NCBI GenBank assembly: GCA_002432095.1
Contig: DJFQ01000139.1
Span: forward strand, 1-13,562
Length of the DNA stretch: 13,562 nt
Reading direction: 5' to 3'
Source of the DNA: Marinagarivorans sp. UBA5868
GTDB lineage: Bacteria; Pseudomonadota; Gammaproteobacteria; Pseudomonadales; Cellvibrionaceae
Within the stretch, counting starts at the first letter, position 1, and every line of letters starts with the position of its first letter. A model generated the notes under the pieces. It worked only from the letters and a program-made list of their open reading frames with translations, did no database searches and was not told the origin of the DNA. Of this stretch, positions 1 through 13,562 are shown piece by piece. Position numbers and translations under genes: made by a program.

Positions 1-1839
1 GTTACCACCGAATTCGCCCATGTGCGCACGACCACTGGACAACCCGAGCAACCTGTCAATTTGAGTATTGATCTGCGCGTCGGTAGCGAGCTCGCCACGA
101 TCCGCCGCCTGCATCAAAGTCTGATCAGGGGTAGTTCCCGTGTACATATAAGCGAGCGCGGTCGCGAACTCGTAGTGCGTCAGAACATAGGCATCAGCTT
201 CAGCCATTTGCAGTTTGCTTTGTCCATTAATACTGCCGATATTCATGTTTTTCTGCATAGCTTCAGCCACTGGAATTCCCAACTCTGAGCGATACAAAAA
301 CTGCGGTGAGGTGATCGCGGCAGTCAATGCCAGCACTAAACCTTCTTCTCTACCGTAATCAGGGTTCGTAAAAAACGCGGAATAAGTGGTTCGCTCGTCC
401 TGCGTTAGCGGGCGACGGAATATCTTCTTAGCGATTGTGTCGACAAAGGTGTTGGCACAGTTAGTCGCGCTCCCATTGCTACCACACGCAGAACTATAGT
501 CTTGCCGCATGCGAGTCGCCGCAGCCGGCGCCACCTTCTCAGCAAATGCTCGCAACGTGTTGTTACGCGTTTCATCCACTCCCATCTTCACGTGCATGTG
601 GATAGGGTATGAGCTCTTGGTCAGCGGAGAATCCGGCGGCAGAGAATCAGCAGTGAAATCGCTTTCCACCGCCAGTTTCAAGTCTATCAGTGAATTCTTA
701 AGCTCACGCTTAGTCAGCAGCTTCAACGTTCTCATACCGTAGGACAGCGGGTCGCTGCTGTCACAAGCTGAGGCTGTAGGATCCGTTGGGCCGTCGCCAG
801 CCAATGAATACAAATAACCTGCGATATTGAGAGCACACGCCCCAGCACAGTTTGCCGGATTAGTTGGTGGCATGCGGGTTTCAATATAGGACACCAATCC
901 CGCGAAGCCGCCCTGACGCGGGGCCAAATCACTGATGGGCACACTAGCCTTGCCGATAACAGAGAACGCGCCGTCACGAGCTTGGTGACAGGTGGAGCAC
1001 TTGTTAGAAGTCAGCTCTGCCTGACCCGCAGCTATATCCGCGTCTTCGAATCGCACACCACCACCCGTACTGGACGAGCTTGAGCTACTGGAGCTGGAGG
1101 ATGAGGAGGAAGATGAGCTGCTGCGTCCAGTACTGGAGGAGCTGCTGGAACTGGATGAGGAAGACGAAACCATCTGTCCGGTCGGAACCAGGTCGAAGTA
1201 GTTCAGGTTCACTTCACCGTCCGGGAAGGTGGTGCGAATCATCGCGGTGGACGCGTTGATGGAGATATTATTGATGGTGCGGTTGGTGTAGGTATCCCAG
1301 CCGCCACCGGTAGTGGTGGTTTCGCCAGCATTACCGCCATTAACACTCACCTGCACTCGTCGACCGGTATTGGCAGAAGCGATGCGGAATGTCATGTTGT
1401 AGACGCCAGGACTTAGGCCGGAAACGTCCCATTCAACCCATTCTCCACTGAGCGCATAGCCGATGGCGCAGACGCCGTTCTGATCGGTGGTATCCACTAG
1501 GTCCGCAGCGTTCGCGGGTTTGGCGGCACAGGCACCGCTCATAGCGCCCTCACGCTGCGTATTCAATTCATTGAAACGGACAAAGTCCTGAGCTTGTACT
1601 CGCACAGTCATTGCGGCAGTGCCGGAAGAGCTGGACGATGAGCTGCTGGAGCTTGAGCTGGAAGAAGAGCTGCTCGAACGCCCTGCGCTGGAGGAGCTTG
1701 AAGAAGATGATGAACTCGAAGATGAATCCACCGGTGGATCTTCCGACCCTCCACATGCGAAGAGGGCGGTGGCAGACACCAGCACTCCAGCAAGTTTCAT
1801 GGTCCGGATAACTTCGGACAGTGACTGCGTTGTGAACAT
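1..1839 (-). CDS. Secreted poly-Ser / CBM6-like / cytochrome c / DUF1592 protein (C-terminus beyond window)
   Basis: This reading frame is open from 1839 to the left edge, giving 613 residues with no stop, so it is partial. ATG 1839 is chosen because AAGG lies 9 bases upstream; the in-frame ATG at 1800 has no ribosome site. The N-terminus ends in a lipobox-like LFAC near residue 28, followed by a poly-Ser linker (about 34-73), a CBM6-like beta-sandwich (about 77-219, with GEWVEW and an FPDGEVNLNYFDL end), a second poly-Ser linker (about 224-261) and a c-type cytochrome with CSTCH at 281-285 and a later RMPP likely to give the Met ligand. After that come a DUF1587-like LLTKRELKNSLIDL, a DUF1595-like FRRPLTQDE and a DUF1592-like SPQFLYRSE to YEFATALAYMYTGTTPDQTL. 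The role is inferred to be extracellular: binding a polysaccharide and carrying or using electrons. The DUF1592 family has no settled reaction. Domain calls are from motif recognition, not a profile search. Confidence 0.88.
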   Translation of the reverse strand, partial: MFTTQSLSEVIRTMKLAGVLVSATALFACGGSEDPPVDSSSSSSSSSSSSSAGRSSSSSSSSSSSSSSSSSSGTAAMTVRVQAQDFVRFNELNTQREGAMSGACAAKPANAADLVDTTDQNGVCAIGYALSGEWVEWDVSGLSPGVYNMTFRIASANTGRRVQVSVNGGNAGETTTTGGGWDTYTNRTINNISINASTAMIRTTFPDGEVNLNYFDLVPTGQMVSSSSSSSSSSSSTGRSSSSSSSSSSSSSSSSSSTGGGVRFEDADIAAGQAELTSNKCSTCHQARDGAFSVIGKASVPISDLAPRQGGFAGLVSYIETRMPPTNPANCAGACALNIAGYLYSLAGDGPTDPTASACDSSDPLSYGMRTLKLLTKRELKNSLIDLKLAVESDFTADSLPPDSPLTKSSYPIHMHVKMGVDETRNNTLRAFAEKVAPAAATRMRQDYSSACGSNGSATNCANTFVDTIAKKIFRRPLTQDERTTYSAFFTNPDYGREEGLVLALTAAITSPQFLYRSELGIPVAEAMQKNMNIGSINGQSKLQMAEADAYVLTHYEFATALAYMYTGTTPDQTLMQAADRGELATDAQINTQIDRLLGLSSGRAHMGEFGGN

Positions 1840-2252
1840 AATCTGTTACCTTGTTGGAATTAGTATGACAGCGTTGAACATTGGGGCTGTTGGCAGAAGG
1901 TGACTCCGGCTCCTCCTCTCCACTCCCCTTTTCTCACCCAGGTTTGTTTAAATCTCGACCAAACACTGAACCATCATTGTTCATAGTTTCGCCAGTTTGA
2001 TTTCCGCGGTCGATTATACGATCGACTTATTGTCAGGTACGACAGATTAGAAATTAAACTCTGATAATTGAGAATTTTGTCGCATTAATCCCATGGAGGC
2101 TCTAGGTTAGACTCCGCGACACAGATCACGCTGACCGGAAAGCAGGTCTAAAACCGTTTCGAAACGTCGGGTTTTTCCCCACAATTGTGCCCACACCAGT
2201 CCCACGTCCCGGGGCAGTCTTAGCTAAAACGACATTCTTATAAGGGTGATGA
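1840..2252. promoter_or_regulatory. Divergent intergenic region with several inverted repeats
   Basis: This gap of about 410 bases separates two genes that point away from each other, so promoters for both must lie here or close by. Seen directly: a C/T-rich tract at 1909-1939, which makes a purine-rich leader for the minus-strand gene; GTCGAT/ATCGAC arms at 2009-2014 and 2021-2026; the perfect palindrome CGTTTCGAAACG at 2155-2166, flanked by AAAACC and GGTTTT; and the perfect palindrome CACAATTGTG at 2180-2189. I could not assign convincing -35/-10 pairs, and I see no credible gene in it. Confidence 0.5.
2155..2189. promoter_or_regulatory. Two adjacent perfect palindromes, possible operator
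   Basis: CGTTTCGAAACG (2155-2166) and CACAATTGTG (2180-2189) are perfect palindromes whose centres lie 24 bases apart, about 65-100 bases upstream of the DUF1566 lipoprotein start. The first is enclosed by AAAACC and GGTTTT, so it could also fold as a longer stem in RNA. Even palindromes with a central CG are typical of LacI-family operators, which often control carbohydrate genes, but the link to a particular regulator is inference. Confidence 0.3.
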
Positions 2253-3071
2253 ATGAATAAAAACTTGGTATTGCGGCCTTTATTGCCTCTCGCGGTGGCA
2301 CTAATGGCGGGCTGTAACGGCAGCGAAGAACCGGCGGTGGTCGACACGACCTACACCGTCAGCGGGCAACTCAACGACACGGGTATTGCGCTCTGTGCTG
2401 CGCCGGCCGCCAATCAACAGACATGCCCACAAAGTGAGCTACCGGGGCAAGACGGCGAATTCGGCAGAGATTCGTCTGCCAGCTCCCTGACCAAAACTGG
2501 AGCTGGCGCGGCTGGATTTGACTGGACCAAGCTGGGCGCGAATGGCGAGCCGCTGGCCATCCAGAACCAAGCCTGGGGCGACGGCGGCAGCGAAGACGCC
2601 GGCACTCACTGGTCGTGCGTACGCGACAATGTGACCGGGCTCGTCTGGGAAATCAAAGAATCCGACCCCGAACACCCACGCTATACCGGTCACACCTATC
2701 GCTGGTGGCTGGATGGCAGCGAATACAATGGCGACTTCCCCGATCAGAGCACCAGTGGCACCTGCGCATTGGATAAATGTGATACCCAGACTTACGTGAA
2801 CTGGCTCAATCAGAACAGCCTCTGCGGTTTCTCCGACTGGCGAATGCCCTCTGTGGCGGAACTGTCATCGATCACCATGCTCGCTAACGTGATTCCGGCG
2901 GTGGATACCGGATACTTTCCAGACGTTAAAGAGCCGCGCTTTTTCACCAATCAATCACTTGCTCGGGACCCATCTCGCGCCTGGTACGTTTATTTCAGCG
3001 ACGGCAGCGTGAGCTTTACCAACAAAGGCGACGCCTCCCATATGCGTCTGGTACGAGGAGACCAGCCATGA
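2253..3071 (+). CDS. DUF1566 domain lipoprotein
   Basis: This is a 272-residue exported lipoprotein. The signal peptide ends in the lipobox LMAGC, with the acylated cysteine at residue 21. A middle segment with PGQDGEFGRDSS, often found ahead of this domain, leads into a DUF1566 (Lcl C-terminal) domain: DNVTGLVWE, then LCGFSDWRMPSVAELSSI, and an end of the form SFTNKGDASHMRLVRG. The several cysteines after the lipobox fit disulfides outside the cytoplasm. AAGG lies 8 bases before the ATG. Its stop overlaps the next gene in an ATGA, so the two are almost surely co-transcribed and coupled. DUF1566 domains occur in bacterial surface proteins; no enzyme activity is established, and a role in surface binding is only inference. 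Residue 43 is not followed by DUF1566 until about residue 120, so the first third is of unknown fold. Confidence 0.85.
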   Translation: MNKNLVLRPLLPLAVALMAGCNGSEEPAVVDTTYTVSGQLNDTGIALCAAPAANQQTCPQSELPGQDGEFGRDSSASSLTKTGAGAAGFDWTKLGANGEPLAIQNQAWGDGGSEDAGTHWSCVRDNVTGLVWEIKESDPEHPRYTGHTYRWWLDGSEYNGDFPDQSTSGTCALDKCDTQTYVNWLNQNSLCGFSDWRMPSVAELSSITMLANVIPAVDTGYFPDVKEPRFFTNQSLARDPSRAWYVYFSDGSVSFTNKGDASHMRLVRGDQP

Positions 3072-3595
3072 TTTTTCTGCGAAACAAACTCGTTGCCCTT
3101 GTGCTGGCGGCTGCTTCTTCTTATACCGCAGCAGAATGCAACACGCAGCTCAAACCAACCTTCGATGAAAGCGCAGTAACCGCGGAAAGCAGCGGTATCG
3201 CAGTGGACAGTAAAACCGGCCTGATGTGGATGCGTTGTTCTTTGGGCTATGTATGGCAGGACGGTTCCTGCGCAAGAGATGAAAGCACATCGGCAGAATT
3301 CGCCTGGGGAGATGCGCTGCAAGCGGCGGCCAATGCCAAATCCTTCGCGGGTTACCAGGACTGGCGCATGCCCAACCGCAAGGAGCTGGCTTCCATTGTT
3401 GAAGGAGCGTGTTTTGATCCGGCCATCAACCTGACGATTTTCCCCGCCACGGAAGCGAAGGGTTACTGGTCCTCGTCCCCAAACAACTTCAATGAATCCT
3501 TCGCTTGGGCGGTCAACTTCATCAATGGTGACCATGTGAGCACCAGCCGCACCAATCTGTTTGCCGTGCGTTTGGTACGTGCCGTCAATCCTTAA
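3068..3595 (+). CDS. Exported DUF1566 domain protein
   Basis: This is a 175-residue protein with a Sec-type signal (positively charged start, a hydrophobic LVALVLAAASS core, probable cleavage near TAA-EC around residue 22). No lipobox precedes its first cysteine, so it is probably soluble in the periplasm or secreted, unlike its partner. The DUF1566 domain is clear: DSKTGLMWMRC, AGYQDWRMPNRKELASIVE, YWSSSPNNF and FAVRLVRAVNP. It starts inside the stop codon of the upstream DUF1566 lipoprotein (ATGA), pointing to translational coupling and a matched amount of both products. It is the shorter, nearly single-domain version of its neighbour, so the pair may have arisen by duplication, though the two are only similar at the motif level. 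A strong terminator follows directly. The function is unknown. Confidence 0.85.
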   Translation: MIFLRNKLVALVLAAASSYTAAECNTQLKPTFDESAVTAESSGIAVDSKTGLMWMRCSLGYVWQDGSCARDESTSAEFAWGDALQAAANAKSFAGYQDWRMPNRKELASIVEGACFDPAINLTIFPATEAKGYWSSSPNNFNESFAWAVNFINGDHVSTSRTNLFAVRLVRAVNP

Positions 3596-3602
3596 TGTCC
3601 TC

Positions 3603-3640
3603 GCCCCGACCAGTCGGTCGGGGCTTCTCTCTTTCTTCTT
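3603..3640 (+). terminator. Rho-independent terminator after the DUF1566 pair
   Basis: A perfect 9-bp GC-rich stem, GCCCCGACC (3603-3611) and GGTCGGGGC (3616-3624), has an AGTC loop and is followed by a pyrimidine tract rich in T. It lies 8 bases after the stop of the second DUF1566 gene and separates that operon from the sensor gene. Confidence 0.88.
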
Positions 3641-3661
3641 CTATAGGTAATTCCCTCTATC

Positions 3662-3712
3662 TGCCCATTAAGGGCATCAGATAACTTCATTGCATCACCG
3701 AAGTGCATGAAG
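3662..3712 (+). promoter_or_regulatory. Two small inverted repeats ahead of the sensor gene
   Basis: TGCCC/GGGCA (3662-3666 and 3672-3676) form a 5-bp hairpin. CTTCATTGCA (3685-3694) pairs with TGCATGAAG (3704-3712) with one bulged T. They lie 75-125 bases upstream of the sensor start, in a gap of about 160 bases that must carry its promoter. They could be protein-binding sites or leader structure. I saw no match to a c-di-GMP riboswitch core. Confidence 0.3.
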
Positions 3713-3786
3713 CGGACTAGACTGAATGCTGGGGCCAGCCTGTCCCTCAATCAGTCCGTTCAACATCACTTACGGCCAGACCAACC

Positions 3787-6700
3787 TTGACCCCGACCCA
3801 GCCGCACAATCGTTTGCTTCGCCGACTGCTGACCTGCCTGGTATTGCTATGCACCTTGCAAATACAGGGCGTTTGGGCCAACCAGGATTTTCATGCCCGA
3901 TTTGAGAGCGTCAAAACACGCGCTGGAGTGACTTTGGGCTATATCGACGCCATTCTGCAGGACAATATTGGCTACATCTGGATGGGTGGCGAGAACGGCT
4001 TGGTGCGTTTTGACGGCTACCAATTTCGTGTTTACCGCAATCATCCGGACAATCCCGAAAGTTTGAGCAACAACACCGTATGGTCGCTGACCGAGGATGC
4101 CAAAGGAGACATCTGGGTTGCCACCGAGGGCGGCATCAACCGCTATAACCGGGCGCAGGATAACTTCACTCGCTTTCAGCACGATCCTACTAATCCTCGG
4201 AGTCTTACCCACGATACGGTCCGCGCAGTCAAAGTCACACGCAACGGCCTGATCATGACCGGTACCTTTGGCGGCGGCGCAGGTTTGTTACACCCCGAGC
4301 GCGGCAGCTTTATCCCCATCCGCTCGCAGAATGACAAACGCGATACCAACGTTTGGGCCGTGTATGAAGATATGGCTGGCAAACTTTGGATCGGTACGGA
4401 GGGCGGCGGCGCCAGCAGCTACGACCCGCAGAGCCGCACTTTTACCCGCTATCACATGCTCGCTTCCGGCAGTCATCGCATTGGCAGCGATACCGTCCGC
4501 TCCATTACCCAGGATCGGGCGGGTGATATCTGGCTAGGCACCGATGCCGGCGTGTATCGCCTGGATAATGGCGCTGTGGTGGAGCACTGGAGGCATATAC
4601 CGGGACAAAATCTCAGTCTTGGCAGCAACATCGTTTGGGATGTGTACGAAGACCAATACGGCGACATATGGGTAGCGACCGATGGCGGAGGTCTCAATCT
4701 TCTGCGTCGCAACAGCCCTCTGGTACGCCGTTTTACCCATAACAGTCTCGACCCCACTTCAATCAGCAGCAATGTCCTGCGCCAAGTGATTGAGGACCAG
4801 GCGGGCGATATCTGGACCGCCAACTTTCCCAGTGGCGTCAACGTTTTCCATCGCGCGGCGCAGTGGGTGGCGCATGTGCGCCACGATGCCGACAGCACCG
4901 GCGGGCTCAATAATCCCTCGGTATTGTCCTTTCTTGAAACCGGCGACGGCAGTCTGTGGGTGGGCACCGATGGCGGCGGTCTCAATCGCATCCGGCCGGA
5001 TGGCTCATTCGAATATCTGCAGCGCGGCGATCAAGGTTTGAGCGCCAACGCCGTCCTTTCGTTGGCGCTGGATCGCGATGGACATATCTGGATCGGCACC
5101 TGGGGCGGAGGAGTCAATCGCTACGACCCTGCAACCGGCAAACTCACCCGTTATCCCGCTCTGCCCGACGAACCCGGCGCGCTTTCTCATCCCAACATTT
5201 GGGCCGTTCTGGTAGACCAGGACAACGATGTGTGGTTTGGCACAGAAGGCGGTGGACTCAACCGTTACAACCGTCGCACCGATAGCATTGAGCGCATCCC
5301 TTACGGTGCAACCGACAGCCGCCACACGGCGGGCGGCATCATTTGGAGCCTGTTTCAGGATCACCGCGGCATGATCTGGGTCGGTAGCAACGCGGGGCTT
5401 AGCCGACTGGATAAAACCACCGGAGAATTCCGCCACTGGCAACACACCGAAAAAGACCCCCTGAGCTTAAGCAACAATACCGTTCTGGCGATTTTTGAGG
5501 ATCGTCAGCAGCAACTTTGGATCGGCACCCGCGCCGGCCTCAACCGGCTGCATCCAAACGGCGAGACATTCCGGGTGATCCGCACTGACGATGGCTTGGC
5601 TAACGACGGCATCACCTCCATTCTCCAGGACGGCGAAGGGCGCATCTGGCTGGGCACCAATGACGGGCTCGCCAGCCTGGATCCCGCCACCTACGACGTG
5701 CGCAACTACAACCGTACCGATTGGGCGAGCGGCAAATTCAATTACGGCAGCGCCATTCGCTTGCAAAGTGGCGAACTGGTGTTCGGCGGCATTCAAGGGT
5801 TTGTGCGTTTTCAACCACAGAACCTGCGAATCAATCCGTTCAAGCCATCGGTGGTACTGACGGACTTTCAAATCTTCAACGAGTCCCAGTCCCCCGGCGG
5901 ACAAGGTTCACCGCTGAGTCAGTCCCTCGGCGCCACCCGCCATATCGTGCTGGACCATACTCAGTCCGTGTTTTCCCTAGAGTTTGCCGCGCTCAACTAC
6001 TACGGCACCGAAAGCAATCGCTACGCCTACAAGCTCGAAGGTTTTGATCGCAATTGGAATGACGTGGGTACCGAGCGCAAAGCGACCTATACCAATCTCG
6101 GTGCCGGTGAATATTTTTTCCGGGTGAAAGCGGCCAATAACGATGGCATTTGGAACGAGGATGGGCTGGAACTGCGCCTCACCATCACCCCCGCGCCATG
6201 GCGAACTTGGTGGGCTTACTTGCTCTACACCTTGGCGGCGGCGCTGCTTATCTGGAGCTACGTGCGTGCGCAACAGCGCAAAATCGCTCAGGAGCGCGCC
6301 GTCAATGACCGTCTGCGCCAACTGGACAAACTCAAGGATAATTTTCTCGCCAATACCTCCCACGAACTGCGCACCCCGCTCAATGGCATCATCGGTTTGG
6401 CGGACTCCCTGCTGGAAGGGGTCGCCGGCGAACTCAACCCGCAGGTACGGCTGAATCTGCAAATGATCACCAACAGCGGCAAGCGCTTGGCCAATCTGGT
6501 CAACGATATTCTCGATTTCGCCCGTCTGAAAAACCGCAAATTGCAGCTGCAGCCGAAACCGGTGCTGTTGCGCCCACTGGTGGACACAGTAGTTTCTCTC
6601 AGCCGCCCGTTGGTGGGTCGCAAGGATCTGGACCTGAGTAATCAGGTGGACGCCGGACTGCCCTCCGTCATGGCCGATGAAAACCGCCTGCAGCAGATTC

Positions 6701-8778
6701 TCTACAACTTGCTGGGCAACGCGATTAAATTCACCGACCACGGCTCGGTGGTGGTAACAGCGCGCTATGAACAGCATCAGGTATGGGTTTCCGTGAGTGA
6801 TACTGGTATCGGCATAGCGGCGGAAAATTTCGAATCGATTTTTGCCTCGTTCGAACAAGTGGAAGATCACACGGATCGCCAGTACGGTGGCACCGGCCTG
6901 GGACTTGCGGTAACCCGGCAACTGGTGGAGCTGCACGGTGGCCAAATCCGTGTGGAGTCCGAACCCGGTCGCGGTTCCACCTTCTACTTCAATCTGCCGT
7001 GTACCGAACAAGCACCAGTGCTGGATGCTGAGCGCAACCCACTGCTGGATCGCGAGATGCTGAGCCAACAACTCAGCGACGCGGCGGCGGATGGCAACGG
7101 CAATACCCTGCTCCCCACCGCCGAACAGCTCCGTGAGAACGACCGTTTCCGCCTGCTTTTGGTGGATGACGAGCCGGTCAATCGCCAAGTGCTGTGCAAT
7201 CAACTGTCGTTGCAAGGTTATCAATTGGTGGAAGCGGAGAGCGGTCCCGAGGCGCTGGAGCTGCTGCAAAGTCACGGTCCCTTCGACTTGGTGCTGCTCG
7301 ACATCATGATGCCACGCATGAGCGGTTATGAAGTCTGCGCACGCATCCGCCGGCAACATCCAGTTAACGAGCTGCCCGTGATATTCCTCACCGCGAAAAA
7401 CCTGATCGCGGATCTGGTGGACGGGTTTGAGGTCGGCGCCAACGACTTCCTCACCAAGCCCATCGCCAAAGGCGAGCTGGTGTCGCGGGTACGGACGCAT
7501 TTGCAATTGCTGGATGTGCACCGCCACCTGGAGGAAAAAGTGAAAGAGCGCACCATGGAAGTGGAGCACGCCAATAAGGTCCTGGAGACCCTGGACGGCA
7601 TAGTCGCCACCATCAACCAAGAGGTGATTCTCGGGCGGTTGCTGGATGTACTGCTGCGCGAAGCAATGCACCTGTTTGGCGAAGCTGAGCGAGCCATCTA
7701 CTGGTCGTTCAACAATGCCTCTGGGGAGTTCGAGGCGATAGCGGCAGAAGGCTACCCGCCCGCTCTGTTACAAACACTCAAACTGGACAACAACACGCTA
7801 TTGACTCGCTACTGCGAGCAGGCGCAGCGCCTGGAAAAAGATATCTATCTGTTAAAACCAGGCATTCAAGGCAGATCGCTGTCGCCGCTAGCGGGACTGC
7901 CAGCCGCACGGGCCGAACTGGCGCTGGCGATTAGTTTTGACGACGGCGTCATCGGCTTTCTCTGCCTGCATAACCTGTCGGCCCAGGATGCCTTCGACCA
8001 GTTGGATACCGTCACCGTCAGCCGCTTCCACGCCCACACCCGTTCGGCGCTATTGAAAGCGCGGTTGATGGAAACGCTTAAAGCACAGAATGAGAAGCTG
8101 GAAGACGCCAGCCTCACCGATCAGCTCACCGGGCTGCGCAACCGCCGCTATCTGTTGAAATACCTGGACTCGGACATCGCCCTGACATTGCGCTCCCACC
8201 GAGGCCGCGCCCCGGACGAGCCGCCACCGCCGAATTCCGACCTGCTGTTTTTTATTCTCGATATCGATCACTTCAAAGAGATCAACGATGTCTATGGCCA
8301 CGCGGCGGGGGATCAAGTCCTGGTGCAAATCAAACGCATCATGGAACAGGTGTTCCGCGAGTCCGACTTTCTAGTGCGCTGGGGCGGGGAAGAATTTTTG
8401 ATGGTCGCCCGCTTCAGCAATCGCAAAGCAGCGCCGTTGATGGCGGAGCGCCTGCGCCAAGCGGTCAACCGTTATCAGTTCGATATAGGCGACGGCCAGA
8501 TTGTCCAGCGTACCTGCTCCATCGGTTTTGCCTGCTTCCCCTATCTCGTCAGCGAGCCTTTAGCATTTAGCTGGAACCAGGTGGTGGATATCGCCGATAT
8601 GTGCCTCTACGCCGCCAAACGCAGCCAACGCGATTGCTGGGTTGGGGTCGAAGCCCACGCTGGCAGCGAAGGTCAGCTCAGCTATCACGCCATCGCCACG
8701 CGACCGCAACAATTGATTAGCGAGCGCAAGCTCCTGCTGCATACCTCCATCGCGCCAGATAAACCATTGCATTGGTAA
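3787..8778 (+). CDS. Propeller-type hybrid histidine kinase / receiver / diguanylate cyclase
   Basis: This 1663-residue membrane sensor has a Sec signal ending in VWA (about residue 31). It then has 14 Reg_prop-type blade motifs (such as GDIWVATEGGINRY) between residues 62 and 668, which fits two seven-bladed propellers in the periplasm. A Y_Y_Y domain (about 729-802) and a membrane segment (about 806-826) follow. The cytoplasmic part has HisKA with phospho-acceptor H859 (SHELRTPLNG), HATPase_c with an N box (DENRLQQILYNLLGNAIKF), DTGIGIA from D1005 and GGTGLGLA, a receiver with phospho-acceptor D1172 (LLDIMMP) and FLTKP, a coiled coil with a GAF-like domain (about 1265-1425), and a GGDEF domain. 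The GGDEF signature is GGEEF at 1533-1537, a form usually active. An RxxD inhibitory site, R1524 to D1527, lies five residues before it, so product feedback by c-di-GMP is likely. The start is TTG 3787: no ATG or GTG lies in frame between the upstream stop at 3718 and the signal peptide. No strong ribosome site is seen. The ligand is unknown; related sensors often sense glycans. Confidence 0.93.
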   Translation: MTPTQPHNRLLRRLLTCLVLLCTLQIQGVWANQDFHARFESVKTRAGVTLGYIDAILQDNIGYIWMGGENGLVRFDGYQFRVYRNHPDNPESLSNNTVWSLTEDAKGDIWVATEGGINRYNRAQDNFTRFQHDPTNPRSLTHDTVRAVKVTRNGLIMTGTFGGGAGLLHPERGSFIPIRSQNDKRDTNVWAVYEDMAGKLWIGTEGGGASSYDPQSRTFTRYHMLASGSHRIGSDTVRSITQDRAGDIWLGTDAGVYRLDNGAVVEHWRHIPGQNLSLGSNIVWDVYEDQYGDIWVATDGGGLNLLRRNSPLVRRFTHNSLDPTSISSNVLRQVIEDQAGDIWTANFPSGVNVFHRAAQWVAHVRHDADSTGGLNNPSVLSFLETGDGSLWVGTDGGGLNRIRPDGSFEYLQRGDQGLSANAVLSLALDRDGHIWIGTWGGGVNRYDPATGKLTRYPALPDEPGALSHPNIWAVLVDQDNDVWFGTEGGGLNRYNRRTDSIERIPYGATDSRHTAGGIIWSLFQDHRGMIWVGSNAGLSRLDKTTGEFRHWQHTEKDPLSLSNNTVLAIFEDRQQQLWIGTRAGLNRLHPNGETFRVIRTDDGLANDGITSILQDGEGRIWLGTNDGLASLDPATYDVRNYNRTDWASGKFNYGSAIRLQSGELVFGGIQGFVRFQPQNLRINPFKPSVVLTDFQIFNESQSPGGQGSPLSQSLGATRHIVLDHTQSVFSLEFAALNYYGTESNRYAYKLEGFDRNWNDVGTERKATYTNLGAGEYFFRVKAANNDGIWNEDGLELRLTITPAPWRTWWAYLLYTLAAALLIWSYVRAQQRKIAQERAVNDRLRQLDKLKDNFLANTSHELRTPLNGIIGLADSLLEGVAGELNPQVRLNLQMITNSGKRLANLVNDILDFARLKNRKLQLQPKPVLLRPLVDTVVSLSRPLVGRKDLDLSNQVDAGLPSVMADENRLQQILYNLLGNAIKFTDHGSVVVTARYEQHQVWVSVSDTGIGIAAENFESIFASFEQVEDHTDRQYGGTGLGLAVTRQLVELHGGQIRVESEPGRGSTFYFNLPCTEQAPVLDAERNPLLDREMLSQQLSDAAADGNGNTLLPTAEQLRENDRFRLLLVDDEPVNRQVLCNQLSLQGYQLVEAESGPEALELLQSHGPFDLVLLDIMMPRMSGYEVCARIRRQHPVNELPVIFLTAKNLIADLVDGFEVGANDFLTKPIAKGELVSRVRTHLQLLDVHRHLEEKVKERTMEVEHANKVLETLDGIVATINQEVILGRLLDVLLREAMHLFGEAERAIYWSFNNASGEFEAIAAEGYPPALLQTLKLDNNTLLTRYCEQAQRLEKDIYLLKPGIQGRSLSPLAGLPAARAELALAISFDDGVIGFLCLHNLSAQDAFDQLDTVTVSRFHAHTRSALLKARLMETLKAQNEKLEDASLTDQLTGLRNRRYLLKYLDSDIALTLRSHRGRAPDEPPPPNSDLLFFILDIDHFKEINDVYGHAAGDQVLVQIKRIMEQVFRESDFLVRWGGEEFLMVARFSNRKAAPLMAERLRQAVNRYQFDIGDGQIVQRTCSIGFACFPYLVSEPLAFSWNQVVDIADMCLYAAKRSQRDCWVGVEAHAGSEGQLSYHAIATRPQQLISERKLLLHTSIAPDKPLHW

Positions 8779-8863
8779 GAAGCGGACGCAACGATCCATG
8801 TTCGGCGTAACAATCCGTATAACCCCTGGTCTATGGCTTCACATTCTGCTGCCGAGGTGACTT

Positions 8864-9859
8864 ATGCTGATCCGCCGCCCCACTGATATTCCCTCCTCCG
8901 AAATTACGCCGGAGTCGGTATACCGCAATCGCCGGGAATTTATGCGCGGCGCCATCGGCCTCACCGCGCTCGGACTGAGTGGCGGCGTACTCGCCAAACC
9001 CGCGCATATCACCGACGCAGAAGTGGCTGGTGCACCCTGGCTGAAAAATCAGATCTCTGCGGCAACAGCGGGAAAAGCCGATAGCAATGAAACTTTAACG
9101 CCCTATCAGCACGTCACCGGCTACAACAATTTTTACGAATTCGGCTACGACAAAACCGACCCCGCAGCCCATGCAGACAGTTTGACCACCGACCCCTGGA
9201 AAGTGGAAATCGCTGGGGAAGTGAACAAGCCCGGCAGCTACAACCTGGAAGATCTGCTCAAAGGATTAACGCTGGAAGAGCGCATTTACCGCCTGCGCTG
9301 TGTCGAAGCCTGGTCCATGGTGATTCCTTGGATTGGTTTTTCGCTTGCGGATTTACTCAAGCGCTTCGAACCCACCAGCAAAGCCAAATACGTCGCCTTC
9401 ACAACTTTGATGCGTCCAGAGGAAATGCCGGCGCAAAAAAGTCGGCTCAGCACAATTAAATGGCCCTACCGAGAGGGTTTACGCATGGACGAAGCCATGC
9501 ATCCGCTCACACTTATGGCGGTGGGTCTTTATGGCAAAGTGCTGCCCAATCAAAACGGCGCACCATTACGCTTGGTGGTGCCGTGGAAATACGGTTTTAA
9601 AAGCATTAAATCCATCGTGAAAATTGAACTGACAGAGGAGCAACCTTACACCAGTTGGAGTGCCATCGCGTCTGACGAATACGGCTTTTACGCCAATGTA
9701 AATCCCCAGGTGGATCACCCGCGCTGGAGCCAGGCACAGGAACGCCGCCTGCCCAGCGGACTTTTGCGACCAAATGTTATCCCTACACAAATGTTTAACG
9801 GTTATGCGGATCAGGTTGCAGGGCTTTATTCCGGCATGGATTTACGCAAGTTGTATTAA
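8864..9859 (+). CDS. msrP: MsrP, periplasmic protein-methionine-sulfoxide reductase, molybdopterin subunit
   Basis: MsrP reduces both forms of methionine sulfoxide in oxidised periplasmic proteins, taking electrons from the membrane protein MsrQ. The 331-residue length matches the family (E. coli YedY/MsrP, 334). A twin-arginine signal, RREFMRG with R23-R24, and a hydrophobic stretch show that it is folded with its Mo-molybdopterin before Tat export. [17 protein letters not shown] places the expected molybdenum-ligand cysteine at C146, and the oxidoreductase fold continues to the C-terminus ([29 protein letters not shown]). ATG 8864 is preceded by GAGGTG at good spacing. The gene follows the large sensor by 85 bases with no clear terminator between; a TATAAC at 8818-8823 could be a -10 element of its own promoter, but the matching -35 is weak. 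It is followed at once by msrQ. Confidence 0.95.
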
Positions 9860-9862
9860 TTT

Positions 9863-10486
9863 ATGTCCACACCCTGGCGCCGCCTGCTGATTTTTATTCT
9901 CTCGTGCCTGCCTTTGGCGTGGCTTATCTGGGCCACGTTGCAGCAACAATTGGGCGCAGACCCGGCAAAAACTATCGTGCTGGAAACCGGCCATTACACC
10001 TTTTATTTTCTCCTGCTCACCCTCGCCGTCACACCACTGCGCAGACTAATTAAATTCCGCCGATTTCATTTTCGCTGGCTGCAAAGCCATCGGCGCATGC
10101 TAGGCCTATTCACGCTGTTTTACGCCCTCACCCATGTAGCAGCCTATTTGGTCTTTATTCTCGGAATGGACCTCTCGTTATTCGTCGCTGAACTGGTAAA
10201 ACGTCCATACATCCTCTTCACGCTACCAGCAATAGCGCTATTGATTGTTCTCGGTATCACCTCCACCCAAGGAATGATGCGCAGACTGGGGAAAAATTGG
10301 CGGCGCCTGCACAGCAGTATTTATTTAATTGCCGTGCTCGCATGGCTGCATGTATTTCTGCAGGTGCGTTCGAGTTATGGAGATGCGGTATTTTTCGGGG
10401 TGATGGTGGCGGTGCTGCTGGGCGTGCGGATTTATTGGAAAATTTTGGGCAAGCGCACGGCGGCACAGCCAACGCCATCGGCGTGA
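9863..10486 (+). CDS. msrQ: MsrQ, haem-binding membrane subunit of the MsrPQ system
   Basis: MsrQ is the inner-membrane haem b protein that passes electrons from the respiratory chain or flavin reductases to MsrP. The 207-residue product (E. coli YedZ/MsrQ, 211) has about six hydrophobic segments and the ferric-reductase-like transmembrane pattern. Conserved histidines in the family's helices are present: ETGHYTFYFLLL, QSHRRMLGLFTLFYALTHVAAY and RLHSSIYLIAVLAWLHVF. The start is only 3 bases after the msrP stop and has no good ribosome site, so translation is probably coupled to msrP. It is followed by a bidirectional terminator at 10580-10609. Confidence 0.94.
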   Translation: MSTPWRRLLIFILSCLPLAWLIWATLQQQLGADPAKTIVLETGHYTFYFLLLTLAVTPLRRLIKFRRFHFRWLQSHRRMLGLFTLFYALTHVAAYLVFILGMDLSLFVAELVKRPYILFTLPAIALLIVLGITSTQGMMRRLGKNWRRLHSSIYLIAVLAWLHVFLQVRSSYGDAVFFGVMVAVLLGVRIYWKILGKRTAAQPTPSA

Positions 10487-10579
10487 ACTCTTTTTACAAA
10501 TTCAATTACGGATTTAATTGAATAAATGATTGAGATTAGACGAGAGCGAACCGAAGATGGTTAAGGACCGAGATAATTA

Positions 10580-10609
10580 AAACCTTACCGGCGAGCGCCG
10601 GTAAGGTTT
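10580..10609. terminator. Bidirectional terminator between msrQ and the RCC1-like lipoprotein
   Basis: A perfect inverted repeat has 14-base arms at 10580-10593 and 10596-10609 (core ACCGGCG/CGCCGGT), with A-rich sequence on the left and T-rich on the right. The plus strand reads stem then TTTATTT; the minus strand reads stem then TTTTAATTA. It lies about 95 bases after the msrQ stop and 10 bases after the stop of the converging minus-strand gene, so it probably ends both transcripts. Confidence 0.85.
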
Positions 10610-10618
10610 ATTTAAAAC

Positions 10619-11854
10619 TTACTCGCGACACTCCGCCGGCATGTAAACCGATTTGCCCTGCATATTAACGGTGCGTGCAACCGCACTGCCGAAGCCCCAG
10701 CATTTTAACTCACCGGTTTTAAGAGCGGCGCAGCTGAATTCGCGACCGGCAGTAATGCTGACAGCGTTGGAGATTTCCGCTCCCATTTCATCTTTGATAA
10801 CGGTGGGTGAACGACTGCCACCGCCGGAACCGGCTTCATTGGAACCGGCGCCGGAGCAGTAGACTTTGCCGCTATCTTCCAGCCAGCAGGCGGTGTGCTG
10901 TCCACAAGCGCTGGCGACCATGCCGCTGGTGAATGTTGGCACCGGGGATTGGCGATTTTGGCTGTCGTAACCGGGAATGCCCAACTGGCCGTTCCAGTTT
11001 TCGCCATCGCAATAGGCAGAGCCGTCCGCGTAAATCGCGCACTTATTGTTGTCACCGCCGGAGAAAAAGGTGACCAAGCCCAGGCTGGACAGAAAATCCT
11101 GATTGCCAGTGGTGCACTGGATTTTGCCGTTTTCCAATACTGCGCAGCAGCCTTCCTTGTAACAACCCATGGAAGAAATGGGAGAGGCGGTGTTGCTGAT
11201 ACGAGTGGTGGGTGCGCTGCCGGGTGCGCCGCAGCGGATGGTGCTGTCTTCCATCTGTGCGCAATATTCGCTGTTGATGCCAAGGCGGCCAACGGCCAGA
11301 GCGCCCGAAGCGATTTCCGGGGTGGTGTTGGCCACGCCGTTGGTACCGCAATGCACGGCGCCGTTACTGCGCACCAGACAGAAACTGCCCTGATCGCCGT
11401 ATTCCCCGTTGGTGATCGCCACAGCGTCATTAATCAATGGTCCACCGCTGCCGAGTTTTATAAAGGACACGCTTAGATTGTCATGGAAACAGCCGGCAGC
11501 GCCGTCGCTGGTGACCACACACGGATTGCGCTTAGCGCCCGATCCCATGCCGATACCCGTGTTGGCGGCGCAAAGACCTCCTGCTATAGGGCCGCTGCCA
11601 ATCACATCACCTGAACTACTGGAAGAGCTGGATGAGCTTGAACTGCTGGAGGAACTCGAGCTGGAGCTACTGGACGAACTGGAACTGCTGGATGAGCTTG
11701 AGCTGCTTGATGAGCTGGAGCTGGAATTGCTGCTGGACGATGAACTACTCGAACTACTGCTGGAAGACGAGCCGCCGGATGAGCCAGTGCCGCCGCAGCC
11801 GGCCAATATCAGGCCCAATAAAAGACAGGCCAGGGGTTTACAGTGCTTGTACAT
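10619..11854 (-). CDS. Poly-Ser lipoprotein with seven RCC1-like repeats
   Basis: This is a 411-residue lipoprotein. The signal ends in the lipobox LAGC with the acylated cysteine at residue 20. A linker that is almost pure serine (about residues 23-81) follows, then a repeat domain to the C-terminus. The repeat unit is related to bacterial RCC1: a cysteine, nine residues usually including an Asp/Asn-Gly turn, and a second cysteine, as in CAIYADGSAYC and CAALKTGELKC. I count seven units with exactly nine residues between the cysteines, which fits one seven-bladed propeller with a disulfide in each blade. Later units carry RCC1-like GENWNGQLG and CWGFG. ATG 11854 is chosen because AAGGA lies 9 bases upstream and the lipoprotein signal begins there; an in-frame TTG at 11953 would add 33 residues that spoil the signal. 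The role is unknown; it is probably surface binding. The linker ties it in style to the cytochrome-CBM protein at the left edge. Confidence 0.88.
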   Translation of the reverse strand: MYKHCKPLACLLLGLILAGCGGTGSSGGSSSSSSSSSSSSSSNSSSSSSSSSSSSSSSSSSSSSSSSSSSSSSSSSSSSSSGDVIGSGPIAGGLCAANTGIGMGSGAKRNPCVVTSDGAAGCFHDNLSVSFIKLGSGGPLINDAVAITNGEYGDQGSFCLVRSNGAVHCGTNGVANTTPEIASGALAVGRLGINSEYCAQMEDSTIRCGAPGSAPTTRISNTASPISSMGCYKEGCCAVLENGKIQCTTGNQDFLSSLGLVTFFSGGDNNKCAIYADGSAYCDGENWNGQLGIPGYDSQNRQSPVPTFTSGMVASACGQHTACWLEDSGKVYCSGAGSNEAGSGGGSRSPTVIKDEMGAEISNAVSITAGREFSCAALKTGELKCWGFGSAVARTVNMQGKSVYMPAECRE

Positions 11855-11890
11855 GGGTGCTGTTCCTTGGTTTGTTATAAGAGGTAATAG

Positions 11891-11908
11891 ATAGGCGTTT
11901 TGGCCTAT
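11891..11908 (-). promoter_or_regulatory. Inverted repeat in the leader of the RCC1-like lipoprotein
   Basis: ATAGGC (11891-11896) and GCCTAT (11903-11908) are perfect 6-base arms around a 6-base spacer, 37-54 bases upstream of the start codon. It may be an operator or a hairpin in the 5' leader. Confidence 0.35.
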
Positions 11909-11952
11909 GGTCGAAAACCCGGTACCAGGGGTGGCTGGAATTTGACCGGGCA

Positions 11953-11981
11953 AGAATGTCGGTCGCCGAGGAGCACGTCAA
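11953..11981 (-). promoter_or_regulatory. Possible sigma-70 promoter for the RCC1-like lipoprotein
   Basis: Read on the minus strand, TTGACG (11981-11976) is a 5/6 match to a -35 box and lies 17 bases before CATTCT (11958-11953), a weak -10 box. This would give a leader of roughly 90 bases containing the ATAGGC/GCCTAT repeat. The -10 match is poor, so this is a suggestion only. Confidence 0.3.
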
Positions 11982-12076
11982 GCCTGGAAGGCCGTTTTTT
12001 TGCGACTCAATGCCGGTGCAGCACGCGGTTTTGCGACCGATGTCGAACTCTTAATACCGGAACGAGCAACGAATTT

Positions 12077-12259
12077 TCACAAATTATTTTTGAGGGTTTC
12101 AATCAGAAAATCCCCCACCAACCGCACCGCTGGCAAGCTGCGACGATGCGGCATCAACAACGTGGTCGTCACGCTGCCGGCGGTCCAATCAGGCAGAAGA
12201 TGCACAAGTCTTGCCGCGTCGGGTTGTGTACGGCACAAACTCAACGGAAGTGGCTCCAA
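12077..12259 (-). pseudogene. Remnant: C-terminal end of a LysR-type regulator
   Basis: Only about 50 residues have family likeness. AARLVHLLPDW, then TTLLMPHRRSLPAVRLVGDFLIETL and a stop match the last part of the LysR effector-binding domain, where a 'grLv.lLpdw' strand is followed by a 'p.rr.lp..vr.fidfl' strand and helix. Clear likeness begins near 12223. There is no helix-turn-helix and no effector pocket, so it cannot work as a regulator. Its missing N-terminus would lie to the right, where a piece of another gene begins on the opposite strand within about 30 bases. This supports an internal deletion rather than slow decay alone. Confidence 0.6.
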
Positions 12260-12480
12260 TGATCATGTCCCTGTTGAATGCCATGATTGAACTTTTCCCA
12301 CAAATCGCCAGGGAGGTCGACACCGGGAATTTCCCACCACCCAGTTCCAATAACGCCATGATGGCCACTGCCCTGAAAAAAATTATCGCCGGCAGCGCAG
12401 AGCAAGGCGTAAGCGCAGATTTGATACGTCCGATAAGCCAATTGTTTGATGAGGCGGTCCCAGCAGGTTTTGTTTGGTGA
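12211..12480 (+). pseudogene. Probable remnant: C-terminal end of a dehydrogenase-like protein
   Basis: An 89-codon frame whose part after 12253 (APMIMSLLNAMIELFPQ, then PPSSNNAMMATALKKII and GVSADLIRPISQLFDEAV) looks like the helical C-terminal domain of NAD(P)-dependent beta-hydroxyacid or imine-reductase-type dehydrogenases, in which a late helix pair closes over the active site. No nucleotide-binding GxGxxG domain is present upstream, and the frame ends abruptly after PAGFVW. LysR genes are commonly divergent from oxidoreductase genes, and the two remnants here have exactly that orientation. It could instead be a small expressed protein starting at an ATG near 12259 (GGAAGTGG precedes it), and the family call is tentative. 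Confidence 0.4.
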
Positions 12481-12523
12481 TAAGGATATTTCCGCGTTGC
12501 TGGCTTTTCTGTCGCCTCAACGT

Positions 12524-13489
12524 CTACAACAACGATAACGGACTTTTCACTCCATTTGCGCCTTGCTTTAATACATGAGTGTAAATTTGAGTCGTAGCAA
12601 GATCTGAATGGCCGAGTTGTTCTTGAATAGTCCGTATATCAATGCCATTCGCCAATAAATGTGTGGCAAACGAGTGGCGAAGCGTATGGCAGCTGACTTG
12701 CTTGGTAAAATTGCACTTAATTGCGGCGGAGCGTACGGCTTTTTGCAAACCTGTCTCATCAATGTGATGTCGCCTGAGCAAATTCGTTTGAGGGTCCCGG
12801 CTTAATTTTTTTGACCCAAACAAATACTGCCACCCCAATTCCTTGTTCGCGTTTGGGTATTTGCGGTCCAACGCGTGCGGTAGCCACACACCTTGAAATT
12901 CAGGGTTCGGCAAATCAAGCTCGAAATAGTGCTGCATCATCTGTATTTGAGCCTTTAATGCAGAGTGCAGCTCGGACGCCAAGGTCACTTGGCGGTGCTT
13001 ACCTCCCTTCCCATTCCAAATCCTCAGGCAGCCGTAATTGAAGTCCACATCCGCAATGCGCAACCTCACTGCCTCCATAAGCCGCAGGCCACTGCCGTAA
13101 AGCAACTGCGCGGGCAGTTTATAGCCCGTAGGGACATGATCAAACAGCTGTTTGACTTCACTTATGGTGAGAACAATTGGCAGCTTTTTTGGAATCTTCG
13201 ACTGATTGAACCTGAGATCCAGCGAGATAGGCTTACCAATAACTTTGTCGTATAAAAAAGCCAGTGAATTCAAAGCCAGCTGCTGGGTGGACCGGCTGAC
13301 ATTGCGTTTGTTGACCAGATGAGATAGAAAAGCCTCTACCGCCTCGCTACCGAGCTCCGCCGGATGGCGCTTACCAGAATAAAGTATATAAAGGCGGATC
13401 CAATAGATGTAGGTTTCAACCGTGCGCTTGGCGTAGCCCAAGGTCATCATTTTTTGGGCCACATCAGACAAAAATTTAGAGCGGGACAC
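12524..13489 (-). CDS. intI: Integron integrase (tyrosine recombinase)
   Basis: This is a complete 321-residue tyrosine recombinase of the IntI group. IntI recombines attI with folded single-stranded attC sites to capture and shuffle gene cassettes. The N-terminal core-binding domain has GYAKRTVETYIYWIRLYI and RHPAELGSEAVEAFLSHL. The catalytic set is intact: R136 (YGSGLR), H268 and R271 (CHTLRHSFATH), H294 (LGHSD) and nucleophile Y303 (IYTHV). The segment specific to integron integrases, absent from XerC/XerD, is present at about 200-222: LPHALDRKYPNA followed by a Trp-containing stretch and, a little later, RRHHID. It ends in GVKSPL as IntI proteins do. The start is GTG 13489, supported by AAGGAGG 4 bases upstream. 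A LexA-like box lies just upstream. The neighbouring attI and cassettes would be past the right edge. It sits beside decayed genes, marking the left border of the integron. Confidence 0.93.
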   Translation of the reverse strand: MSRSKFLSDVAQKMMTLGYAKRTVETYIYWIRLYILYSGKRHPAELGSEAVEAFLSHLVNKRNVSRSTQQLALNSLAFLYDKVIGKPISLDLRFNQSKIPKKLPIVLTISEVKQLFDHVPTGYKLPAQLLYGSGLRLMEAVRLRIADVDFNYGCLRIWNGKGGKHRQVTLASELHSALKAQIQMMQHYFELDLPNPEFQGVWLPHALDRKYPNANKELGWQYLFGSKKLSRDPQTNLLRRHHIDETGLQKAVRSAAIKCNFTKQVSCHTLRHSFATHLLANGIDIRTIQEQLGHSDLATTQIYTHVLKQGANGVKSPLSLL

Positions 13490-13562
13490 GCAACCTCCTT
13501 GTTTAAAATTTAAAACTGTATTTGCATACAGTATTCACGTCGAAGACCAAAATCAAGCCTCG
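13490..13562. other. intI promoter region, possible start of the attI side
   Basis: The stretch holds the intI ribosome site (AAGGAGG, complement of 13493-13499), the LexA box and about 30 further bases. In most integrons attI and the cassette promoter lie on this 5' side of intI. No complete attI simple site (paired core repeats with GTT) can be recognised in what remains before the edge. Confidence 0.35.
13514..13533 (-). promoter_or_regulatory. LexA (SOS) box upstream of intI
   Basis: CTGT-N8-ACAG (13516-13519 and 13528-13531) has flanking bases that also match the gammaproteobacterial LexA consensus TACTGT(N8)ACAGTA; on the minus strand it reads TACTGTATGCAAATACAGTT. It lies 25-44 bases upstream of the intI GTG, so bound LexA would overlap or block the promoter. 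Known integron integrases are controlled by LexA in the same way, so integrase production is expected to rise after DNA damage. Confidence 0.88.

Follow-up and report, generated by a model that had tools for sequence, protein, structure and literature searches.

Contig C179, whose bases 1-13562 are the stretch of DNA analysed here (the window) and which reaches 15556, very probably carries a chromosomal integron. The integron comprises an integrase gene (intI), an attI site and an SOS-type switch, most likely lies between an RCC1-like gene and hemH, and has its cassette array leading away from intI. The integrase is intact and keeps attC-contact residues; an attI core, foldable attC sites with bulged bases and a LexA-type box accompany it. 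The corresponding place holds no integron in two congeners (genomes G001 and G002), and the lineage of the integrase does not match the kinship of the cassettes. The integron call, made from bare sequence, was confirmed. Coordinates of the features are collected in Table 1.

Table 1. Features of the integron and its left border on contig C179
Feature	Position	Strand	Basis or remark
RCC1-like gene flanking the integron	10619-11953	minus	RCC1-like domain, serine-rich linkers
Segment between end of congener similarity and intI	12049-12523		
intI, integron integrase	13489-12524	minus	321 aa, GTG start, intact, no stops; ORF and profiles
Shine-Dalgarno-like AAGGAGG	13494-13500	minus	4 nt before GTG; by eye
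LexA-type box CTGT-N8-ACAG	13516-13531	minus	begins 27 bases upstream of intI start codon; pattern match
attI core	13798-13851	plus	crossover 13848/13849; plasmid likeness and leader motif
Cassette 1	13849-14250	plus	no convincing ORF; G^TT borders
attC1	14149-14256	plus	R1 74.0 bits, R2 70.0 bits
Cassette 2	14251-14720	plus	116-aa ORF 14265-14615, hydrophobic by eye, no Pfam match
attC2	14619-14726	plus	R1 82.8 bits, R2 75.9 bits
Cassette 3	14721-15070	plus	G^TT borders
attC3	15000-15076	plus	R1 43.2 bits, R2 33.0 bits
Cassette 4	from 15071	plus	121-aa ORF 15093-15458, no Pfam match
attC4	15465-15556	plus	cut by contig end; R1 27.3 bits, R2 29.9 bits

The integrase gene and its upstream region

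An intact integron integrase had been predicted at the right edge of the window, and this was borne out: the integron integrase profile TIGR02249 matched the stop-free 321-aa ORF with 444.2 bits, above its cut-off of 265, and the match is not due to chance. The gene span originally given (12524..13562, with no strand) required correction, coding sequence covering only 12524-13489 on the minus strand and 13490-13562 being the upstream region. The tyrosine recombinase core domain (PF00589) and, as claimed, the full catalytic set of these enzymes are present (R136, K161, H268, R271, H294 and Y303). So is the IntI-specific segment expected around residues 200-222, where K210, Y211 and W220 align with K209, Y210 and W219 of VchIntIA; W158, P233, H241 and H242 align with VchIntIA W157, P232, H240 and H241 (counted manually from the alignment). 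Eight VchIntIA residues hold extrahelical attC bases, according to an excerpt of PMC3053210. Seven of these eight attC-contact residues are kept in the window's IntI, the exception being VchIntIA Q145, which is A146 here. Likeness to VchIntIA (PDB 2a3v, there called IntI4) amounts to 390 bits over residues 4-320 and extends to the catalytic residues.

That the enzyme is instead an Xer or phage-type tyrosine recombinase is extremely improbable. The PF00589 core is common to both and weaker Xer similarity was detected, but the XerD and XerC profiles gave 154.1 and 142.1 bits, below their respective cut-offs of 329.6 and 335.15 and against the 444 bits of TIGR02249; the match to the 2a3v integrase, the attC-contact residues and the attC sites alongside likewise argue against it. 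In a tree with one Xer-like row (on a long branch) and no phage integrase included, the protein fell among integron integrases and apart from that row, in agreement with the profile scores.

The protein had also been described as unlike the class 1 integrase, which our comparisons supported. The integron integrase equivalog model NF011946, which we take to be IntI1, gave 271.9 bits, below its cut-off of 435. Among plasmid-borne integrases the best match was 58.2% identical, and the best 5000 records were all below 60%. A class 1 integron was rejected on both grounds. As a separate observation, the E. coli IncX1 plasmid AP027469 carries an intact integron integrase near tet(M) (locus L078, 3986-4957), 58% identical to the window's IntI and scoring 294.9 bits with NF011946, also below the cut-off.

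The LexA-type box lies within the -100 to +50 region of intI and is the single match to CTGT-N8-ACAG in the whole 15556-bp contig. LexA controls intI in Vibrio and in mobile integrons, as stated in an excerpt of PMC3108266, and we consider the box a candidate SOS-type switch to which LexA would bind. A looser LexA-type pattern, applied to the first 150 bases, was positive in 7 of 16 regions (one of the regions, L077, being without adjacent intI): C179, Agaribacterium, G007, G015, one of three Thalassotalea leaders, G011 and G006. The same search revealed no such box before intI of the two congeners. No sigma-70-like promoter (cassette promoter Pc) passed a simple scan of 13400-14100.

attI and the cassette array

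The cassette array had been predicted to start just outside the window. It did: attI and attC sites were found to the right on the same contig, from 13798 to 15556. Two N at 13563-13564, directly past the window end, separate intI from attI, and it is the assembly that places the two side by side. The attI core lies next to intI across this NN and ends at the crossover, where cassette 1 begins; similarity to a G002 cassette starts at 13848. Just before the crossover, the core TCTAATAANNTGTTA is complete in C179 and in three Thalassotalea leaders; DNA before dfrA1 on an E. coli plasmid agrees with it at 14 of 15 positions, and the congeners' leaders reach 10/15, chance level. Compared without gaps, the motif (picked after the leaders had been inspected) does little or no better than chance in the closest named relatives and those of the family: it matched at 12/15 positions in G007, where 18 of 200 shuffles were equally good, and at 11/15 in both G015 and Agaribacterium, where 135/200 and 134/200 shuffles did as well. 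Scanning viral contigs for the attI core gave no match.

Five copies of the repeat TTAGACGG are present in C179 between 13661 and 13841 (at most 3 in 200 shuffles), and the double-repeat pattern occurred in one of 38 genomes searched, namely C179's own. We rejected the idea that these repeats are transposon ends, since the dfrA1-linked DNA match and the crossover core point to attI. The dfrA1-linked match concerns E. coli plasmids NZ_AP027602 and NZ_JBRNHF010000004, on which attI-like DNA before dfrA1 equals C179 at 50 of 54 bases up to the crossover and carries TTAGACGG-type repeats. These plasmids differ from C179 in that no integrase was found beside the attI-like DNA in a 10-kb stretch of NZ_AP027602 and none is annotated in the 12-kb stretch around it in NZ_JBRNHF010000004. 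A 201-base query for attI-like DNA hit 2 of 5426 E. coli genomes and 1 of 72,556 plasmid records. The dfrA1-linked DNA corresponds to L077 4860-5060 and to L079, in which ISCR2 is annotated adjacent; the plasmid search that gave it also listed four weak Acinetobacter matches (E 0.3-0.9). Presumably the attI-like DNA before dfrA1 descends from the SXT class 4 integron. The likeness of attI to a site by a mobile cassette for trimethoprim resistance is a hint that the attI of a mobile integron has a relative in the environment.

All four attC sites of C179 lie right of intI in array orientation, about 0.7-2 kb from its start and on the predicted side, so that the refuting outcome named beforehand, a lack of attC within several kb of the gene, did not occur. 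attC1 was first recognised by eye, and cassette borders were placed manually at the G^TT of each R' box. Bottom-strand folds of the three complete sites beat all 200 shuffles (z -4.51, -6.85 and -3.74), and the folded sites carry bulged stem bases; in attC3 the outer boxes are unpaired with each other. Defence-system models had no match among five ORFs of cassettes or cassette-like DNA.

Two covariance models were used. R1 comprised 18 sites, including the three complete C179 sites and mostly picked for complementarity; its pairs are standard in 80.7% of cells, versus 33-39% when shifted by one to three columns. To lessen the circularity of R1, which includes C179 sites, R2 drew on 63 sites in ten further loci, all from outside C179's genome and genus, aligned by and fitted to R1. 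R2 recovered all four C179 attC. R1 had no match at E up to 5 on C179 outside 14149-15556, and R2 had none at E up to 5 in 58,086 bases (four stretches with no known integron, from the two congeners and contig C71). Across the whole own genome at E up to 1, R1 gave 4 matches (150 of 789 candidates scored) and R2 gave 3 (150 of 906), on C179 and C16 only; since 150 candidates were scored, weak sites can escape this search, as attC3 did with R2. R1 further gave 110 matches in 15 of 23 related loci; 109 have array orientation and lie to the attI side of intI, and the exception is in L016. The side was judged manually, and 15/18 R1 training sites come from those loci. Strict R''/R' and duplex-based scans missed the C179 attC and listed others in coding DNA; a looser attC scan put attC2 and attC3 at the top and listed two further matches of lower score in other places.

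The sequence leads us to expect a device that functions like other integrons, with an IntI that presumably recombines. The expected mechanism is binding of IntI to the bulged bases of attC hairpins folded from the bottom strand, followed by recombination with double-stranded attI at 13848/13849, which would bring cassettes in at the first position. DNA damage would raise intI expression via the LexA box.

Chromosomal place of the integron

The original prediction placed the integrase on a chromosome, and the left flank agrees. Window 2245-12048 is collinear with G001, long pieces being 69-77% identical, and 1-10389 is collinear in pieces with G002. This congener-collinear DNA, with G001 similarity up to 12048, runs into intI without N or gap. 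It matches congener contigs of 0.48-1.19 Mb, indicating embedding in chromosomal genes and not in a transposon or plasmid. GC content is 55.6% in 1-12048, 48.0% in intI and 45.7% in the cassettes.

Several other features of the window were recorded. Within the segment before intI, 12211-12480 encodes part of a C-terminal domain of reductive-aminase type (PF21761, 49 bits), which may be what is left of a gene at the outer edge of the integron; among the loci compared, it matched just overlapping loci of its own contig. Two minus-strand proteins, encoded at 1-1839 and 10619-11953, have long serine-rich linkers, and a hybrid protein of 1663 aa, encoded at 3787-8778, combines two-component propeller, histidine kinase, receiver and GGDEF domains. 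The window had no Rfam match at gathering thresholds.

The far side of the integron was approached through hemH. The RCC1-like gene is followed by hemH in G001. In G002, about 1 kb separates hemH from msrQ, and the stretch compared yielded no RCC1-like gene. In the own genome hemH is on a 3770-bp contig (C122), preceded by short ORFs, and before it 46-50 bases match the first half of a congener attC at 82-86%. Neither R1 nor R2 detected an attC on C122, so the array end there would be decayed or broken by gaps. The joining of C122 to C179 is inferred because the array breaks at contig ends. Given hemH next to the RCC1-like gene in G001 and the attC half by hemH on C122, the integron most likely fills the space between these two genes, and its array would reach hemH. 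At the corresponding place in G001 and G002 no attC was found.

Contig C16 (L055) has a further array end at 1-1660, followed by other genes including a GH11 xylanase-like one. It starts with the tail of an attC-like site (by eye), carries attC at 583-693 and 1577-1660 together with DUF6714 and PEP-mutase-like ORFs, and looks like another array end rather than the hemH side. With the array broken by contig ends, four attC are seen on C179 and two on C16.

Integrase lineage, cassette kinship and known systems

The congeners' integrases are 41-42% identical to the window's IntI and fall in another clade of the tree. A tree constrained to join the window's IntI and P0001, a database protein 98% identical to it, with both congeners was rejected (AU p 6.7e-69; the group was named after the first tree had been inspected). 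Among named IntI proteins the closest come from Cellvibrionaceae MAGs (65-71%), which makes the suggested Cellvibrionaceae-like host plausible. Integrases of these MAGs, Agaribacterium haliotis, G007, G015, Thalassotalea and Rheinheimera share the same broad IntI clade at 55-71% identity. Related intI loci (L005-L050) differ in their surroundings, hemH and the RCC1-like gene not being found in the stretches around them.

The cassettes have other kin. Among 53 chosen sites, those of congeners come nearest to each of the five complete own-genome attC (three on C179 and two on C16), with 83-95% identity versus at most 75% for others. Two of the three complete cassettes have whole-length congener counterparts: cassettes 1 and 3 in G002 (85% and 87%) and cassette 3 in G001 (84%). 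Cassette 2 shares with congeners just the attC region and neighbouring bases. As for the congeners' own integrons, intI of G001 adjoins an ABC transporter gene, beside which no attC was found on own contig C71 (0.9 kb seen beyond) or in G002. intI of G002 lies in a third neighbourhood, and the matching own-genome contig ends about 0.8 kb before that point; these neighbourhood comparisons covered one flank each. A different G002 contig from that carrying intI (C6, 40000-59900; L076) has 20 attC matches at E up to 0.1; they share one strand and may form an array that lacks an integrase of its own.

Integrons seem to occupy a different place in each of the three species and to use two distantly related integrases (41-42% identity), yet whole cassettes and attC types are shared; the histories of platform and cassette pool appear to differ. 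We think it improbable that the link between intI and the array is an assembly or binning artefact in which a foreign intI was joined at the NN to the genus's own array. Such an origin could account for an IntI unlike the congeners' next to congener-like cassettes in a genome 87.58% complete with 3.06% contamination, and the NN offers a point of joining, but both sides of the gap speak against it. On the left, intI is continuous with the G001-similar DNA; on the right, the attI core, which recurs in Thalassotalea loci whose IntI belongs to the same broad clade and does no better than chance in the leaders of the congeners, continues without any N into congener-type cassettes. hemH, the neighbour of the RCC1-like gene in G001, moreover stands beside a congener-type attC half on C122.

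The platform appears either to have arrived and used the genus's cassette pool or to be old and lost in the congeners. We lean towards the view that, within one genus, the cassette pool was kept and the integron platform (integrase, attI and SOS switch) was replaced or moved. The platform would have come into the lineage and been stocked from cassettes circulating in the genus. An ancestral hemH-side integron, which the congeners lost while keeping or gaining another elsewhere, is possible but rather unlikely. Integrases of the window's broad IntI clade are also present in other genera of the family (G007, G015), and a genus sample of three genomes is compatible with loss; against this, neither congener has an attC at that place.

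If exchange or relocation of the platform is correct, attC type would follow the host's cassette pool and not the lineage of the integrase, and turnover would be quicker for 'sedentary' platforms than for the community of cassettes they serve. With two integrase lineages and near-identical attC in one genus, nature offers a test of which partner attC co-evolve with, the integrase or the cassette pool of the host. In the excerpted text of Ghaly et al. (PMC8352920), attC are conserved within taxa and cluster by environment, and IntI-attC co-evolution within a taxon is argued. The C179 case fits a shared cassette pool better than strict pairing of attC with integrase lineage. The advance is incremental, because lateral transfer of chromosomal intI within a genus has already been reported for Shewanella, as an excerpt of PMC9229058 indicates. 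A search of open-licence literature found no paper on a chromosomal integron in Cellvibrionaceae or on an integron integrase in Cellvibrio.

Like the sedentary chromosomal integrons of Gammaproteobacteria (Vibrio, Shewanella), the C179 integron has intI divergent from the array, an attI, a LexA-type box, and attC cassettes mostly without known function. It differs from them in that its place is not common to two congeners and its integrase clade is not theirs. We conclude that this is a familiar gene-capturing device, mildly unusual because the lineage and place of its integrase differ from those of its two nearest relatives, though the cassettes are alike.
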